The notes under the pieces were generated by a model. The model did no database searches. It was given only the letters and a program-made list of their open reading frames with translations, and was not told the origin of the DNA. A stretch of 58,643 bases of DNA from an uncultured Lachnospiraceae bacterium (GTDB lineage Bacteria > Bacillota > Clostridia > Lachnospirales > Lachnospiraceae): the NCBI GenBank assembly GCA_947652925.1, contig CANTEW010000012.1, forward strand, positions 1 to 58,643. The letters run 5' to 3'. Positions 21,910 to 45,413 of the stretch are shown here, piece after piece. Every line of letters starts with the position of its first letter. The stretch's first letter is position 1. The translations under genes and the position numbers were made by a program.

Positions 21910-22075
21910 CTAGTACTCCATCCGGCCAGAAATCATAGTTTGACTCCGTCTGCTCCGCACCATTGCGTTGTTAAAATTTCTAACCGATGCCACCGCATCG
22001 CCGTCAAAATTTTGCCTAGCACTGGTGCAGACCAGTCAAAGTCAAACTACAATTTCTGACTGGATGGAGTACTAG
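21910..22075. repeat. Palindromic element type 1, copy A (166 bp, CTAG-bounded)
   Basis: Bounded by CTAG at both ends, with ends CTAGTACTCCATCC and GGATGGAGTACTAG. The whole element is a near-palindrome of two 83-base arms; the outer 38 bases match best. It is the reverse complement of copy B at 42879-43044 with six mismatches by hand alignment. No ORF inside. It occupies most of the gap between the folC operon and the CmpB-like gene. Confidence 0.85.
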
Positions 22076-22096
22076 AGTGTGTTTGAAAGATCATCC
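22072..22096 (-). repeat. Terminus of palindromic element type 2 abutting copy A
   Basis: CTAGAGTGTGTTTGAAAGAT and four or five further bases match the reversed end of the type 2 element (compare 30896-30919 and 42862-42882). It shares the CTAG of element type 1. The rest of type 2 is absent. Confidence 0.65.
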
Positions 22097-22166
22097 ACTC
22101 TCTAAATAAATGTATTTTTTTCTCTCATATGGGAAACAGCTATTAGAAAACGGAGTCTATAAACAT

Positions 22167-24048: not shown

Positions 24049-24947
24049 TTATCTCAAAGCACACTCTTTTTTAAATCTTTCATAATATCCCTGTGCCTTC
24101 TGGATCGATATATCCAGATTTTTTTGCAGTCTCTCTATGATGGCATCTTTCGAAAGCCCGAATTCCTCGCCTGTCTCTATGATACCTTCTGCCCGTCCTT
24201 CTTCTCTTCCTTCTTCCCTTCCTTTCGCTTCTCCTTCCGCCCATGTTTCCCTGAATACTTTACTCATATACATACCCATATCCCCCTCCATTCCCAAAAT
24301 ATCCCGGTCGATCTTATAATCTGTCACACTCACAGCTGTCACAAATACAGATTTTTCTATCTTGTGTCCTTGTACATAATCTATCACCCTATCTTTTATC
24401 TCTTTTGCAGATCTTTTCATATCCAACAATATCTCAAACAGATTGAACAGATCCACATTCTTTCTATCCCTTGATCCAAGATCGTTTTTCCTTGCTTCTA
24501 CAAGCAGCATCCTGTGATCGTTGACAAATCCTGCGATCTTTTCATCAATCTTCAGCATCCCGTGAAGAGACGTGGCGCCGTCCCAGGGCTTTTCGCCATA
24601 ATACACGACTATCGTGATGACCGGGATAAATCTGTCCGTTTTCTTCATCTTTGAAAGGTACTCGTCCCCATCTAAGCCACTTGCCTTCACATATTTTTTC
24701 GCGTTATCTTCGTACTGTTTCTTATATGTTCCATGCTCATATCCCATGACACGCAAAGGCATCGCATAGTCAATGTATTCCTGGTTTTCCATCCCCAGCA
24801 TCACAAATTCCACGTTGTGAGCAGTGGATCGCTTCCTTATTTTTATATTATCACGGGACGCCTGTATACTTTCTGCATATTTTCTATGTTCCAATACAGA
24901 AGAACTCTCTGTATCCACATCCTCCAATTCCTCGGCATACGGGCCAA
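24049..24947 (-). pseudogene. Rpn/PD-(D/E)XK nuclease family protein, 5-prime end lost
   Basis: The protein shows the core of Rpn-type recombination-promoting nucleases of Clostridia: HNVEFVMLGMENQEYIDYAMPLRVMGYE, IPVITIVVYYGEKPWDG, LLVEARKND, and the charged run GEAKGREEGREEGRAEG near the C-end. The reading frame stays open to 25041, but the codons upstream of about 24947 lie in palindromic element type 2 and encode no family sequence. About 40 residues of the normal N-end are missing and no ribosome binding site is evident. I call it a 5-prime-truncated relic; a shorter translated form is not excluded. Confidence 0.65.
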
Positions 24948-25004
24948 ATATACCACAAAGTGGGGCGTGCGGGTGGCGTGAATGATTTTTAAGACACGCT
25001 CTAG
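24948..25004 (+). repeat. Palindromic element type 2, right-end fragment
   Basis: From ATATACCACAAAGTGGGGCG to AAGACACGCTCTAG this aligns with the last 57 bases of the element at 42826-42882 (sequence GTGGGGCG, GGCGTGAATGATTTTT shared). It ends at CTAG and is followed by TACTCCACC, the first bases of element type 1, as in the full tandem. Confidence 0.75.
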
Positions 25005-25080
25005 TACTCCACCATCTCCCTATATATCCCAAAAACGGCATGGCCGTAAGGCCATGCCGTTTGAGATCCTTTATAGAAGA

Positions 25081-30751: not shown

Positions 30752-30919
30752 CTTGAACGTGTATGAACAACACTTTATGTCAACCGCATGTCACGATCTG
30801 TGGAGGATCTGGTCCAAATGAGGGCGGCGCAGCGCGGGCTGCGTCAACCGAAAGCGGGACAGATACACCGCAAAATGAGGCTTGCAGATGGCCTGGATGA
30901 TCTTTAAAACACGCTCTAA
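30752..30919 (+). repeat. Palindromic element type 2, diverged copy
   Basis: Aligns over its whole length with 42717-42882: shared blocks are CTTTATGTCAACCG, GGGCTGCG versus GGGCTACG, ACAGATACACCGCAAA and the end AAACACGCTCTA. Its ends are CTTG and CTAA in place of CTAG. Two near-palindromic arms are still visible. It lies between the two large surface protein genes; no gene is seen from 30920 to 30976. Confidence 0.7.
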
Positions 30920-40846: not shown

Positions 40847-41365
40847 CTAGAAAGTTCTTACTCCAACCCTTACCAAAAAAATTAGATAAGCGGCTGGGTA
40901 TTGAGGATAGGAAGTCCATGAGCAGATGCTCATGGACTTCCTCGTTGTCTTTGGAGGAATTCAATCGCGCCAGTTTATCTTTAACTGGTTCTACCAGCAT
41001 ATTAAACGGCTCAGCAAATTTTGCCGCCACTGTCCCGTCAGGGCCGACTAGTGTATCGACAAGTTGACTTCTGTAATAAAGCGTGCCGGATATTTTGTCA
41101 CTCTGCAAGGCGGAGGAATGAGGTGTAGCGGTGGCTACAGCGATTGACGGTGCTATGTGCCAGTGGCACATGTTCAGCACGGACCGGAACGAAGTGCAGA
41201 CCAACGCAGCACAAGATGATCTCTAGGAAGGTCTTTAACCTCAGTACACTGACTTATCTATGGTCTTTTGCACAAGCTGGAAGGTACCAGTCGAGTTATA
41301 CGGATGTCTACTCCAGGGAGCTGGCTCCGAGATATTAAATGCCTTATTGCTGTTAGGATTTGTGC
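40847..41365. other. Gene-poor segment after tRNA-Leu with palindromes and a dispersed repeat
   Basis: No gene I can support. It holds a perfect 12-bp hairpin GGAAGTCCATGA (40910-40921) / TCATGGACTTCC (40930-40941), a GTGCCAgTGGCAC palindrome near 41158-41170, and the type 3 repeat at 41057-41096. Open frames on both strands (for example a minus-strand one with LYYRSQLVDTLVGPDG) have no recognised family and one runs through the antisense of the tRNA. Looks like eroded mobile DNA. Confidence 0.5.
41057..41096 (-). repeat. Short dispersed segment (type 3), copy 2
   Basis: Inverted match to 30708-30746 (see that entry). On the minus strand it ends near ATACACTAG, whose CTAG is at the point where the type 2 element begins in the 30.7 kb copy. 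Confidence 0.65.
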
Positions 41366-41677: not shown

Positions 41678-41906
41678 ACTCCTGCCTCAGTTCTGAAAGA
41701 AAATCCTTGGCGTTTTTGCATTCGCAGTTGGCGATCTGCCGTTCGGAAGTCTCTGCGATCTTGATAATATCCTCTTCGCTCAACAATGGAAATGGGTACT
41801 CTGCCCCGCGTTGCTTGAACAGGCTTCTGGCGTAATCCTGGATTTTGATCAAATCGGTCTCAGGCAGCACTTCCAGCATGGAGATCGTGTTTTCTAATGT
41901 ACTCAT
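41667..41906 (-). CDS. Antitoxin of the RelE/ParE pair
   Basis: A 79-residue acidic protein located before the toxin. The N-half (TISMLEVLPETDLIKIQDYARSLF) is a helical antitoxin-type segment and the C-end (KDFLSELRQEYGI) would bind the toxin. AAGGAGGAG precedes the ATG. Upstream on the minus strand a TTTATA / TATGAT pair with 17-base spacing may be the autoregulated promoter. Confidence 0.75.
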   Translation of the reverse strand: MSTLENTISMLEVLPETDLIKIQDYARSLFKQRGAEYPFPLLSEEDIIKIAETSERQIANCECKNAKDFLSELRQEYGI

Positions 41907-42027
41907 CCCGGCTCTCCTCCTTCTTTCTAAAATGTGATCGGCATGATCCTATTAAAAACTATCATAACATCTTACGGCATAAATATAAACACTTTTAAAA
42001 AATATCTATTGGGAGTTCAGCATAATG

Positions 42028-42497
42028 TCATCTTAAGTATCGCCTCGTCCGCTCATCCTGCCTGATGCCGAGGTAAAGCTTAGTGGTCTCATAACTACCA
42101 TGGTCATAAATATCTACAACTACTGCCAGCGACACATCCCCATCTATGATAGCGTGGTAGCCCCAGGTCTTCCACAAAGAATGGCAGGCAATCTTGCCCA
42201 TGATCCCCGGCTCCACTACGGCGGCAGGGATGATCCGCCACGCCTGCACCCGGCTGATAGCCTTTGGCTCTTTACGGTCATTGGCAAAGATATGATCGCC
42301 CCGGCGGTGGAGGTAACACTGCTTGAGTGCTCCTAGTACTCCATCCGACCATTTGAGCCGGAGCAGGTCGCTGATCCGAAACACGGTATATGCCCCATCA
42401 ATACAAGCGTATGATCACGCAGTTACCCTTTCTTCAAAAAATAATCCGCAAATTCCTTTAACTGTTTCTTGTCCCTGATCGGTTCTGTTGCTGCCAT
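42028..42497 (-). pseudogene. Tyrosine recombinase/integrase, inactivated
   Basis: On the minus strand an ATG at 42497 reads ATEPIRDKKQLKEFADYFLKKG and then meets TAA where family members have Gln (CAA). LRDHTLVLMG follows, then a one-base frame change to AYTVFRISDLLRLKW. After KWSD about 35-40 residues are gone and the junction carries GGATGGAGTACTAG, the end of element type 1. The rest reads ISRVQAWRII and KIACHSLWKTWGYHA, where the catalytic Arg of HxxR is Trp. So there are four separate lesions. It is a phage- or conjugative-element-type recombinase, not XerD. Confidence 0.85.
42333..42346 (+). repeat. Element type 1 end (14-bp scar)
   Basis: CTAGTACTCCATCC, identical to the type 1 terminus at 21910 and 42879, at the internal deletion junction of the recombinase pseudogene. 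Confidence 0.75.
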
Positions 42498-42676
42498 AAT
42501 AAATAAAGCCCCCTTTTTCTTTGATAGAAATAAATATAACCTATCAAGGACAAGAGGACACTCGTAACATTTTGTCTATACTGTAGCCTATTCTAACATC
42601 AAGATCAACAAGATCCAAGGGAAAGATCATTTTTATCTAAATACTAAAAAGTTTAAATATATGTTATAAAAATAGA

Positions 42677-42705
42677 TTGAAAACACATCTAATATCATGT
42701 ATGAT
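42677..42705 (+). promoter_or_regulatory. Predicted promoter, separated from the XRE gene by the two elements
   Basis: TTGAAA (42677-42682), 17-base spacer, TATGAT (42700-42705). It overlaps an ATATCAT/ATGAT palindrome that recurs by the second promoter at 43339. The next gene downstream is the XRE regulator at 43087, but the element tandem lies between. The stretch 42498-42676 holds no gene. Confidence 0.55.
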
Positions 42706-42716
42706 GATATCATCTA

Positions 42717-42882
42717 CTAGAATGTGTTTGAAAAATGCTTTATGTCAACCGTAAGCCACAATTTGTGGGAGATCTGCCCCGAATGAAGGCGGCGTAGCGG
42801 GCTACGGCAACTGGATAAGGGGCAGATATACCGCAAAGTGGGGCGTACGGATGGCGTGAATGATTTTTCAAACACACTCTAG
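42717..42882 (+). repeat. Palindromic element type 2, full copy (166 bp, CTAG-bounded)
   Basis: Ends CTAGAATGTGTTTGAAAAAT and ATTTTTCAAACACACTCTAG. The two halves form an imperfect palindrome with pairs such as ATCTGCCCC / GGGGCAGAT and GCGTAGC / GCTACG at the centre. Inner length between CTAG tetramers is 158 bp. Related sequence at 30752-30919 and fragments at 24948-25004, 22072-22096 and 11164-11182. No ORF. Confidence 0.85.
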
Positions 42883-43044
42883 TACTCCATCCAGTCAGAA
42901 ATTGTAGTTTGACTTTGCCTGGTCTGCACCAGTGCTAGGCAAAATTTTGACGGTGATGCGGAGGCATCGGTTAGAAATTTTAACAACGCAATGGTGCGGA
43001 GCAGACAGAGTCAAACTATGATCTCTGGCTGGATGGAGTACTAG
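42879..43044 (+). repeat. Palindromic element type 1, copy B (166 bp, CTAG-bounded)
   Basis: Ends CTAGTACTCCATCC and GGATGGAGTACTAG; inner length 158 bp. Near-palindromic along its whole length. Reverse complement of copy A with six mismatches. It shares its left CTAG with element type 2. Confidence 0.9.
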
Positions 43045-43086
43045 ATAAAGATATCTAAAATGGACTAAATTTAAAGAGATTGAGAA

Positions 43087-43320
43087 ATGTTGATCTATAA
43101 GATAAATGTATCAGAAAAACTAAAGGCCACCGGATATGATACGACAAGGTTGAGAAAAGAAAGATCGCTAAATGAAAACGCTATACAATATTTAAGAGAG
43201 GGAAGACCCGTAGGCGCAAAAGCTATGGACAATATCTGCCGCCTTCTCGATACTCAACCGGGCGATATCTTAGGATATGTCAGTGACCCTCACTTGGATG
43301 ACACCCAAAATAAAACATGA
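43087..43320 (+). CDS. Small XRE-family helix-turn-helix regulator
   Basis: A 77-residue Cro/C1-type DNA-binding protein. The helix-turn-helix is visible in LRKERSLNENAIQYLREGRPVGAKAMDNICRLLD, quoted in parts as NENAIQYLREG and AKAMDNICRLL, and the family ending QPGDILGY follows. Acts as a repressor or activator in the cytoplasm. The start follows a weak AAAGAG site. The stop lies in a 44-base palindrome shared with the next promoter, which may be its operator. Recent mobile neighbours suggest horizontal origin. Confidence 0.88.
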   Translation: MLIYKINVSEKLKATGYDTTRLRKERSLNENAIQYLREGRPVGAKAMDNICRLLDTQPGDILGYVSDPHLDDTQNKT

Positions 43321-43360
43321 TATTTAATGTGAGCCCTATTGGGATCACACTAAATATCAT
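43317..43360 (+). promoter_or_regulatory. 44-base palindrome, candidate XRE operator
   Basis: ATGATATTTAATGTGA pairs with TCACACTAAATATCAT (one mismatch) with a CCC/GGG inner stem. It overlaps the XRE stop and the promoter TTGGGA (43339-43344) - 17 - TATAAC (43362-43367). The half-site TAAATATCATGTAT resembles TAATATCATGTAT at 42690-42702 in the first promoter. Confidence 0.5.
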
Positions 43361-43418
43361 GTATAACAATATTATCAGATGTGGCAAATAAATCTGAAAT
43401 ACAGAAAGAGAGACAGAT

Positions 43419-43556
43419 ATGGAAACCATGGGGATGACAAACAAACAATGGTATGCCGATGTAAGAAACCAGATTGAAGACTGGGAAGATGTTAGAGAAA
43501 TGATCCAGGGAACGCCAGATAGTCCCGGAAAAGAACTGGCATTGAAAAAGATCTAA
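43419..43556 (+). CDS. Small ORF of 45 residues between XRE and the pRiA4b-type gene
   Basis: ATG at 43419 reads MTNKQWYADVRNQIEDWEDVREMIQG, quoted in part as NKQWYADVRNQIEDWEDV, and ends at TAA 43554-43556. It is charged and helical. Upstream there is only AAAGAGAGA as a ribosome binding site. I do not recognise a family. Its place between a regulator and a larger gene under a shared promoter suggests it is part of one unit; it could be a fragment of a longer gene. Confidence 0.45.
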   Translation: METMGMTNKQWYADVRNQIEDWEDVREMIQGTPDSPGKELALKKI

Positions 43557-43676
43557 CAGATGCCTATCTTAAAAACATCAAAAAGCCCTTGGCTATAGAA
43601 AGATATCGCTATATAATGATAACATCAGACAACACATCACCGATCCTTTTACAAAATACACATGGAGAGAAAAAAT

Positions 43677-45332
43677 ATGATCTCAGACAAATTATACCAG
43701 CTCGCGTTTGAATACAAGAAAACAAAGCTCTGGAAGACCCTATGGGACACAGATATATTTGCCGTGGCATTATCGGACGGCCAGATCGGTTATATCAGTG
43801 TGATGGGGGCAGGGGGAGACCATTGTGCCCTGGGCGTGTATATAGGCAGCGATGGATTGAGCAGTTATCTGCGTGTACTCACAACAGATCCCAGGACGCT
43901 GCCTCCCCTCAGACTCCGGGAACATCTCCTGCAGCAGGACTGCCTGCAGTGCGCATTTGAAAACAAAAGTGAGCTTTCAAAAGAAGAGCATGAAGAGGCA
44001 AAGGGATATGCCCGCACCCATGGGATAAGGATCGCCGGAAAAAAGGCCTATCCACAGTTCAAAAAGTACACGCCCAACCGCCTCCCATGGCATCTGCAGA
44101 CGGAAAAAGAACAGGAGATCCTCTGCCAAGTCCTGGATGCCGCCATCGAACTCTCCAAACGGTTGGAGACAAGTTCCCCCGACTCCCTGGGCCTTGTCCG
44201 GTTTGACGAGAACACCAGAGAGATCCCCTTACTGAGATACCAGGACGAGGGATATGTGATCGAAAAGACAGAACTCCCGCCGGAGACACCTCTGACCGTA
44301 CCTTCCCCCACAGCCAGCAATGACGTGGGCATCGCAAGTCTTAAGAAGGCCAAAAAAAGCGGCATCTGGGAATGCGAGATCATCCGCTTCCCCCAACCGA
44401 TCCAAAACGACCCGGAAGAGATCCCATTTTTTCCCATAACTCTGCTAGCTGTTGAATCCTCCAGCGGATACATGCTGCAAGTACCCCCTATTGAAGATTA
44501 TGAAAAAGACCCGGAACATCTCTTGAACATGTTCATAGAAGGATTCCTAAAAGAAAAGATCTGTCCGATCAGCATCAAGACCCGGGATGCACGCACCTAC
44601 GCATTTGCAGAATCCCTCTGCAAGAGACTGAAGATCAAGCTCAATATGGTGGGTGATACAGAGATGCCCGCGCTGGATGAAGCAGAAGAGAACTTTATAG
44701 CGCATTTCAGTATGGACGAAGAGGAACAGATGGACAGCCTCAACAGTGTGCTGGACACTTTACTGGGATTGGACGAAAGACAACTGCGCACACTGCCCGA
44801 TGAAATGGTCAACATACTGAGTATGCTGGCGGAACAGGGGATCTTACCGGATGCTCTGGTGGAAAAGCTGGACAGGGTCTTCTCTCCTACAAGCGCTCCT
44901 CCTGCAAAGCAAAAACAGACAGGCCCGCAGCATTCTTACGTGATCAGCGTCTCCCTGGGCACCGGCTGTTACCGGCACATCCAGATCGGGGGCGGCTGCA
45001 CACTGCTGGAACTGCACCGCGCCATCTTAGGAGCTTTCGGATTTATGGACGACCATGCCCATGCTTTTTTCATGGATAACATCATGTGGAGCGAAGCAGA
45101 CTGCTACTATGTGACAGGTATCAAACGCTATTACCGCACCACCAGAAAATACACCCTGGACCAGGCCGGTCTGTCCAAAGATATGTCTTTTAAATATGTC
45201 TTTGACTTTGGAGACGAGTGGACTTTTCAATGCAGGGTGCTGAAGGTCCTACCGGAAGATACGGATCATCCCATCATCATAAAGAGCAAAGGCGAAGCCC
45301 CTGAGCAATACCCTTCCTGGGACGACGAATGA
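43677..45332 (+). CDS. Plasmid pRiA4b ORF-3 family protein with N-terminal extension
   Basis: A 551-residue protein. The last about 130 residues (YVISVSLGTGCYRHIQIGGGCTLLELH, FGFMDDHAHAFFMD, YVFDFGDEWTFQCRVL) form the pRiA4b ORF-3-like domain, also seen as a passenger in IS elements. The first 420 residues include two repeated-looking blocks (IGYISVMGAGGDHCALGVYIG; PITLLAVESSSGYMLQVPP), typical of DUF6930/DUF7309-like extensions. Start set at 43677 from GGAGAG at 43664; an ATG at 43662 contains that site. Enzymatic role unknown. Confidence 0.8.
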   Translation: MISDKLYQLAFEYKKTKLWKTLWDTDIFAVALSDGQIGYISVMGAGGDHCALGVYIGSDGLSSYLRVLTTDPRTLPPLRLREHLLQQDCLQCAFENKSELSKEEHEEAKGYARTHGIRIAGKKAYPQFKKYTPNRLPWHLQTEKEQEILCQVLDAAIELSKRLETSSPDSLGLVRFDENTREIPLLRYQDEGYVIEKTELPPETPLTVPSPTASNDVGIASLKKAKKSGIWECEIIRFPQPIQNDPEEIPFFPITLLAVESSSGYMLQVPPIEDYEKDPEHLLNMFIEGFLKEKICPISIKTRDARTYAFAESLCKRLKIKLNMVGDTEMPALDEAEENFIAHFSMDEEEQMDSLNSVLDTLLGLDERQLRTLPDEMVNILSMLAEQGILPDALVEKLDRVFSPTSAPPAKQKQTGPQHSYVISVSLGTGCYRHIQIGGGCTLLELHRAILGAFGFMDDHAHAFFMDNIMWSEADCYYVTGIKRYYRTTRKYTLDQAGLSKDMSFKYVFDFGDEWTFQCRVLKVLPEDTDHPIIIKSKGEAPEQYPSWDDE

Positions 45333-45336
45333 ATGA

Positions 45337-45385
45337 GAGGGCTGGTGTAAAAAGAGTGGTATACCCTTTTTTTACACCAGCCCTC
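45337..45385. terminator. Bidirectional terminator between pRiA4b-type gene and rfbD
   Basis: GAGGGCTGGTGTAAAAA (45337-45353) pairs perfectly with TTTTTACACCAGCCCTC (45369-45385). Serves two converging genes. Confidence 0.85.
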
Positions 45386-45413
45386 CCATTTTTTTCTATC
45401 ATGAGATCTTCTA

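Follow-up and report, generated by a model that had tools for sequence, protein, structure and literature searches.

The window, the whole stretch of 58,643 nucleotides analysed here, carries two near-palindromic elements, E1 and E2, placed end to end (Table 1). As had been initially annotated, CTAG tetramers at 42717, 42879 and 43041 leave 158 bp between them twice and the middle one is common to both elements. The palindromic arms were also recovered, with 84 nt and 76% complementarity in E1 and 71 nt and 79% in E2, and over the full length the self-complement identity was 74.7% and 76.5%, respectively. The equal length of 166 bp is real, but it is partly a matter of bookkeeping: in E1 a 160-bp element is flanked on either side by TA and a single target base, and in E2 4-bp repeats flank an element of 158 bp. 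In the ORF list of the window no ORF of 60 aa or more overlaps either element. Folding of both strands gave -87.5 kcal/mol (z -11.4) for the + strand and -69.6 kcal/mol (z -11.6) for the - strand of E1, and -101.4 kcal/mol (z -14.2) for the + strand of E2, energies that none of 200 shuffles reached in any of the three cases. Both strands of E1 fold far beyond chance, which counts against a one-strand reading. A search of Rfam with positions 41800-43800 yielded no match above the gathering score; the sub-threshold matches were mostly to miRNA hairpin families.

Directly downstream of the pair lies a gene for a small Cro/C1-type HTH protein (PF13443; 43087-43320, + strand), after which a short inverted repeat is present at 43315-43362. 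Another inverted repeat (45332-45390; 25-nt arms, 92% complementary, with T runs) looks like an ordinary terminator. At 42333-42346, 14 bases of an ORF fragment of the phage-integrase type (PF00589; 42028-42384, - strand) match the E2 end exactly, and an E2 remnant may lie inside this fragment.

Table 1. Positions of E1, E2 and related elements in the window, with the ends of the other families
Feature	Position	Strand	Description
E1	42717-42882	+	166 bp with both CTAG; near-palindromic, well-supported MITE; + strand folds better
E1 ends			IS5-type; (C)TA-GAGYGTGTTTGAAAAAT
E2	42879-43044	+	166 bp with both CTAG; near-palindromic, likely MITE; + strand folds better
E2 ends			CTAG-TACTCCATCC
CTAG common to E1 and E2	42879-42882		interpreted as the target at which one element inserted next to the other
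E2-internal CTAG	42935-42938		E2 positions 57-60; the copy L011 has E1 there, with CTAG on both sides
E2 apical tip	42952-42971	+	GGTGATGCGGAGGCATCGGT; usual form GGYG-NN-GCGGTGGC-NN-CGGY
E1 apical tip	42791-42808	+	GGCGTAGCGGGCTACGGC; 2 bases shorter than the E2 and E3 tips
Second E2 copy	21910-22075	-	96.4% identical; abuts an E1-type end at 22072-22098
Older E1-like copy	30752-30918	+	77.5% identical
E1 fragment	24937-25004	+	86.8% identical; ends at CTAG, then E2-like end (2 mismatches) at 25001-25014
Remnant of longer E3 variant	41048-41226	+	degraded on the right; left end CTAGTGTATCGACAAG, with the tip at 41122-41141
Other end-families			E3 TGTAGCGACA and variants; E5 TGTACTGTACCG; E6 TACAGCRTTGCG; element L279 differs again

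Comparison with the own genome and with relatives established that E1 and E2 are both dispersed and that both occur in other gut Lachnospiraceae. The pair as query gave 89 matches in its own genome (2.92 Mb, 100 contigs), both palindrome orientations being counted, and the loci in hand from this genome include at least 23 full-length copies of E1 and at least 14 near-full-length copies of E2, two of which measure 133 and 157 bp. The E2 end CTAGTACTCCATCC occurred 95 times with up to two mismatches (39 times exactly) against 25 occurrences of the reversed control; for the E1 end, with up to three mismatches, the figures were 122 and 7. The pair was matched in all five genomes of the genus that were searched, the own genome included, and in named genomes 65 stretches, most of them from Lachnospiraceae, carried E2 ends. 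Among 299 genomes sampled from the family, E1 was detected in at least 15 and E2 in at least 4, counts that are lower bounds because two candidates were scored per genome.

Length is nearly fixed in both elements: of 141 full-length E1 copies, 120 have exactly 166 bp, and 57 of 61 E2 copies fall within 163-167 bp. The alternative that the initial annotation had offered, a pair of related, non-autonomous elements that share a size limit and a target, is thus largely right, in that both appear to be MITEs with mostly CTAG ends, near-fixed length and a related tip; for neither element do the copies combine variable length with ends devoid of CTAG. Ends of the E1 and E2 types are found on elements of other sizes as well. 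The counts of ends and of strand asymmetry given below refer to copies of 160-168 bp, i.e., 132 of the 141 E1 copies (125 distinct) and 57 of the 61 E2 copies (53 distinct), and copies within one genome are not independent.

The description of E1 and E2 as unrelated proved too strong. Their arms and ends do differ, and direct similarity between them was not significant, the score being reached by 340 of 500 shuffles for the whole elements and by 51 of 500 for the middle 60 nt, but the exact centres of both resemble the tip of a third family, E3. The central tips read GGCGTAGCG--GGCTACGGC in E1, GGCGATGCGGTGGCATCGGC in E2 and GGCGTAGCGGTGGCTACGGC in E3. In these comparisons, which used single-base shuffles of consensus sequences, the similarity of E1 to E3 was reached by none of 500 shuffles, and that of E2 to E3 by 1 of 500 (middle 60 nt) and 39 of 500 (whole). 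It is through E3, and over some 30 nt, that E1 is putatively linked to the shared tip. With at most two mismatches allowed, the tip pattern was present 62 times in the own genome against 7 for the control, and among the loci in hand 41 elements combine the tip with matching ends, 27 of them with E2-type and 14 with other ends. All 31 tip elements with CTAG at both ends are 165-167 bp long; the other ten (155-171 bp) lack one of the two terminal CTAG or had their limits set at an inner TA. A second form of E3, 218-219 bp in length, accounts for 4 of 11 pairs of ends, and at least one E2-ended element of 163 bp (L160) is without the tip.

About 50 nt at the tip are shared by E3, E5, E6 and L279 (GCAAGGCGGAGGAATGAGGCG-NN-GCGGTGGC-NN-CG..GATTGACGACAACGC, with variants); E6 has no match in Rfam. 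Two elements have E2 ends around an E3-type core: L147 agrees with E2 at 43 of 48 end positions, its core matching E3 at 74 of 90 positions as against 61 of 108 for E2, and L335 agrees with E2 at 42 of 52 end positions, its core at 68 of 89 with E3 as against 57 of 94 with E2. Recombination between ends and core is suggested by these elements. A related central tip appears to be common to E1, E2 and three or more families that have other ends and are mostly 165-167 bp long. Elements with a different interior were encountered as well. E4 (L018:1663-1812 and L092:1268-1416) is a CTAG-bounded palindrome of 149-150 bp with ends CTAGYACTACAGCGAAC, and an element of 240-242 bp with E1-type ends lies beside or within E2 (L032:1265, L049:1551, L104:640-879 and L107:714-955).

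The target of these elements is scarce. The window contains 28 CTAG sites against 158.6 +/- 11.9 in shuffles, and at least 9 of the 28 are ends or insides of E1, E2 or their relatives. Among the 132 E1 copies the end tetramers were CTAG twice in 63, NTAG..CTAN with an outer base departing from CTAG in 41 and neither in 28, and no copy had an equal non-CTAG tetramer at its two ends. In copies that retain TAG and CTA, the outer base is C or T on the left in 109 of 113 cases, and G or A on the right in 111 of 114. Judged from these flanks, E1 duplicates TA inside a YTAR target, the adjoining G and C being the element's own. The 57 E2 copies had CTAG twice in 43 cases, no simple pattern in 11 and an E1-like pattern in 2; this CTAG frequency is inflated, since E2 loci outside the own genome were mostly collected by a pattern requiring CTAG at one end. 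Non-CTAG direct repeats of 4 bp were present as ATAG/ATAG around a full-length copy (L008) and an interrupted copy (L103), and as TTAG/TTAG around a short form (L221), in which the right TTAG also starts an E1-type end. E2 thus apparently duplicates 4 bp (NTAG), the three non-CTAG copies being the basis of this assignment. The two elements appear to arrive at CTAG by separate routes.

A transposase gene between E1 ends, which had been named as something to look for, belongs to an IS5-family element, which we take to be a member of the IS427-like group. The own genome has four such copies of 885-994 bp with E1 ends, each with at least one stop in the matched stretch; some of these stops may represent a normal change of frame. 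In another genome (G106) an 885-bp element (L363:5912-6796) has two transposase frames matching NF033580 (IS5_3), with 138.8 bits for orfA and 109 bits, just under the cut-off of 110, for orfB; an E1-type end adjoins it and has one CTAG in common with it. With this IS, E1 shares the terminal ~19 bp, TA included. That E1 is a MITE with an IS5-type partner is well supported, and the same is likely for E2. At locus L140 the E2 end runs into subterminal sequence of the E1-ended IS5 elements and a transposase remnant; this relic is internally deleted and its other end was not found. It points to a likely IS5-type parent of E2, but it could be a recombinant. Six E2-bearing genomes, G304 and G306 included, showed no inward pair of E2 ends at IS length among the places listed, which were a part of those in G304 and none of those in G306. 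At least nine mini E2 elements of 46 bp with little beyond the two ends (e.g., L150:4846-4891) are present in G304 (contigs of strain MGB1), and several contigs of that genome stop within ~70 bp of an E2 end.

IS1182-like elements favour palindromic targets. IS1182 was considered as the parent and rejected, the IS1182 copies here having ends CAGACTGTAGACAAAG. Three IS1182-family copies (L098:1-1572, L209:930-2516 and L193) appear to sit in palindromic sequence, and the flank of the first is an E1-type end.

In plasmids neither the E1-E2 pair nor the E2-IS relic nor E6 was matched; viral contigs had no match for the E2 end or for a long core pattern, and phage records none for E6. A short tip pattern did match at least 120 viral-contig stretches, but these matches were taken for chance in G+C-rich phages and were not used as evidence. 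One match in a phage record was an E1-like element, 80% identical, in MT839353.1 (L554:3058-3224), a 4.3-kb, unannotated and unverified record from human faeces.

The folded structure is asymmetric between strands in E1, E2 and the tip elements. In every one of the 125 distinct copies of E1 the + strand was the more stable (mean -89.4 vs -58.3), as it was in all 53 distinct copies of E2 (-96.0 vs -75.0), DNA folding parameters gave the same direction, and the tip strand folds better in 41 of 41 tip elements, 27 of which are E2-ended and overlap the 53 E2 copies. At mirror positions of the palindromes G-U exceeded A-C on the + strand (357:126 cells in E1 and 370:152 in E2); the commonest imperfection was a mismatch of another kind (717 cells in E1 and 554 in E2). 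Covariation was counted for named structures in sets of 45 sequences each, taken from the 125 distinct copies of E1 and the 53 of E2. In E1, 24 pairs had both partners changed (13.8 in shuffles), and in E2, 37 (16.6 in shuffles), values that none of 500 shuffles reached for either element; repair from arm to arm could mimic such compensatory change.

Changes from Watson-Crick pairs to G-U or A-C, as read on the + strand, were then placed on FastTree trees by Fitch parsimony over 166 columns, so that the branch counts are approximate and depend on the root. In E1 the ratio of G-U to A-C changes was 75:90 on terminal branches and 35:16 on internal branches (p 0.011). In E2 it was 43:23 on terminal branches (p 0.019) and 36:8 on internal branches (p 2.5e-5). 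A smaller first set had given 38:40 and 13:7 for terminal and internal branches of E1, and 31:18 and 30:5 for those of E2. A mutational strand bias would be expected to appear on the terminal branches of E1; it is absent there, though the terminal branches of E2 lean to G-U, and neutral decay is therefore clear only for E1. Other mismatches were not depleted on internal branches (29 in E1, beside the 35 and 16), and on internal branches of E2 A-C and G-U returned to Watson-Crick pairs equally (25 and 26 times). Since recent changes in E1 are without strand bias and older ones are biased, the folded strand, as RNA or single-stranded DNA, is suggested to matter for spread.

Ordinary palindromic MITEs whose fold has no role, with an asymmetry derived from few founders and arms kept alike by intrastrand repair, would account for the MITE-like ends, the target-site duplications, the IS5 partner and the decay of E1 copies without strand bias (75:90). 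A founder effect, in turn, poorly explains the bias on internal branches, and the same asymmetry recurs in several end-families (41/41), the core being found with exchanged ends. Elements of other interior are also less asymmetric: E4 folds about equally on both strands, the differences being 0.9 and 3.6 kcal/mol in its two copies, and five E1-type elements of 240-242 bp are weakly asymmetric, with strand differences of 1.0 to 14.5 kcal/mol. We regard a fold without any role as possible but doubtful.

The orientation of E1 in the chromosome is uneven. At 34 of the 41 places listed in G106, the skew-negative strand carries the strong strand of E1 (p 2.5e-5); there are at least 41 such places, obtained from 40 of 80 candidates scored, and the skew was interpolated from 20 sampled stretches, within which alone the count is 4 lagging and 2 leading. 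E1 orientation in this genome switches at ~2.0 Mb and the skew at ~1.7-1.8 Mb. Two further genomes gave 17 of 24 (G183; p 0.064) and 15 of 24 (G000; p 0.31), with the skew taken as the sign of one stretch of at most 20 kb around the copies and in some cases near zero (-0.01, -0.04). The pooled count is 66 of 89, with significance in a single genome reached only in G106. Because CTAG is palindromic and the two ends of E1 are nearly alike, the target should not set orientation, which must then be set by replication, transcription or selection after insertion. E2 showed no replichore bias in G000 (7 lagging, 6 leading).

Such an orientation pattern would also be expected if selection acted against the opposite strand, strong hairpins on the lagging-strand template or in mRNA being harmful, so that the weaker strand and one surviving orientation result. 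The mismatches other than G-U and A-C that are not depleted on internal branches would fit this explanation as well. Neither compensatory pairs nor a conserved tip are predicted by it, and the unbiased E2 copies of G000 speak against it. Selection against the opposite strand is a live rival to a function of the folded strand, albeit one we consider rather unlikely.

Alternatively, the hairpins could serve the host where they lie, by forming 3' ends of transcripts, processing sites or insulators, with the RNA fold under selection. Neighbouring genes were defined here as automatic ORFs of at least 90 aa. E1 lies between convergent genes more often than between divergent ones (21 vs 10), and the BOX and RUP elements of Streptococcus pneumoniae are likewise enriched between convergent genes according to passages of one report (PMC3049150). 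E2 shows the reverse (6 convergent, 12 divergent). With respect to the strong strand of E1, both neighbours are opposite in 47 cases and both in the same sense in 24 (p 0.0086), so that its folding strand is more often antisense to its neighbours; for E2 the numbers are 14 and 13. As individual E1 copies are, in addition, without strand-biased constraint, a function for the host in place is improbable.

The junctions bear on how E1 and E2 came to share a tetramer. Of 61 E2 copies, 20 adjoin an E1-type end (16 on the left, 3 on the right and 1 on both sides), and E2 is also joined to E1-type elements of other sizes. In L011 E1 sits within the internal CTAG of E2, with intact E2 copies as the empty form, and L218 has an E3 element joined through CTAG to an E1-type end, a junction that in L019 contains an E2; these empty-site comparisons are at the level of repeats and are not allelic. 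The E1-E2 pair itself is present at three sites in the own genome and at one in a congener. Between two of these compounds (L001 and L002) the E1 halves are 86.1% and the E2 halves 97.6% identical, and in a third (L003) E1 is inverted relative to E2. The difference of 14% in E1 against 2.4% in E2, together with the inversion, implies that the compounds formed independently. Since CTAG is scarce and each insertion leaves CTAG at the element ends, elements insert into and beside one another, and such sequential insertion accounts for the CTAG shared by E1 and E2. A single composite unit of two hairpins, as the initial annotation had proposed, would fit the recurrence of the pair at its four sites, but it is highly improbable because E1 and E2 each occur alone at many sites, E2 abuts E1-type elements of other sizes, the E1 parts differ more than the E2 parts and E1 is inverted in L003.

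Taken together, we consider it quite probable that E1 and E2 are IS5-moved MITEs abutting at CTAG and belonging to a hairpin superfamily in which the folded tip strand has a role. IS5-family transposases would move both elements in trans, and the CTAG end of one element would serve as the landing site for the next. Within the superfamily the core tip would stay related, the length would usually be ~166 bp and one strand would fold better, while the ends recognised by the transposases would differ. The folded tip strand, as RNA or single-stranded DNA, would take part in the spread of source copies, and E1 copies would decay neutrally after insertion. We infer a function of the folded strand in the source lineage from the branch pattern, the core and the orientation. 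A bolder version is put forward tentatively: a selfish hairpin superfamily, selected for its folded tip strand with a stem of nearly fixed length and a conserved apical core, would have acquired the ends of several IS5-type transposons in turn, and its propagation would require that one strand to fold, which would couple the orientation of insertion to replication.

The common view of MITEs is that they are passive products of deletion in an IS. As in IS5-family MITEs (NF033580), E1 has the ~19-bp ends and the CTAG/YTAR site of the 885-bp IS; it differs in an interior without evident relation to the IS, as judged by eye, in a related hairpin core that occurs under other ends and in its strand-asymmetric fold. 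REP and REPIN sequences are not known to leave a target duplication and have a RAYT partner. REPINs are described in one paper as inverted pairs predicted to fold in single-stranded DNA or mRNA and moved in trans (PMC3116915); here E1 has a target duplication and an IS5-type partner, E2 probably so as well, and the units measure ~160 bp. For IS5 of E. coli a duplication of 4 bp with the consensus C(A/T)A(G/A), CTAG and CTAA included, is given in part of another paper (PMC11677980), which resembles the duplication inferred for E2, whereas E1 duplicates TA only. The passages on BOX and RUP portray high-copy, structured repeats with IS-like ends, enriched between convergent genes and strand-biased in the chromosome, about 61% of the insertions being on the leading strand (PMC3049150). 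The enrichment matches E1 and not E2; RUP is ~107 bp long and BOX modular, and the folding strand of E1, unlike the BOX and RUP insertions, is mostly on the non-leading strand. TIMEs are, by the title of their description (PMC4133298), mosaic and non-autonomous, but they derive from Tn3, unlike E1 and E2. Stable stem-loops in MITE transcripts are treated in passages of a 2024 review (PMC10969869), and strand-specific selection is not mentioned in those passages. Literature searches, judged by title, returned no paper on repeats of the E1/E2 type.

A scarce target that is multiplied by each insertion can give rise to chains of tandem and nested elements, as the CTAG sites here illustrate. The comparison of internal with terminal branches separates selection on source copies from selection on resident copies and is applicable to other MITEs. 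The hairpin core, the usual length and the better-folding strand recur across different ends, and MITEs of the E1/E2 type may thus carry a function of their own.
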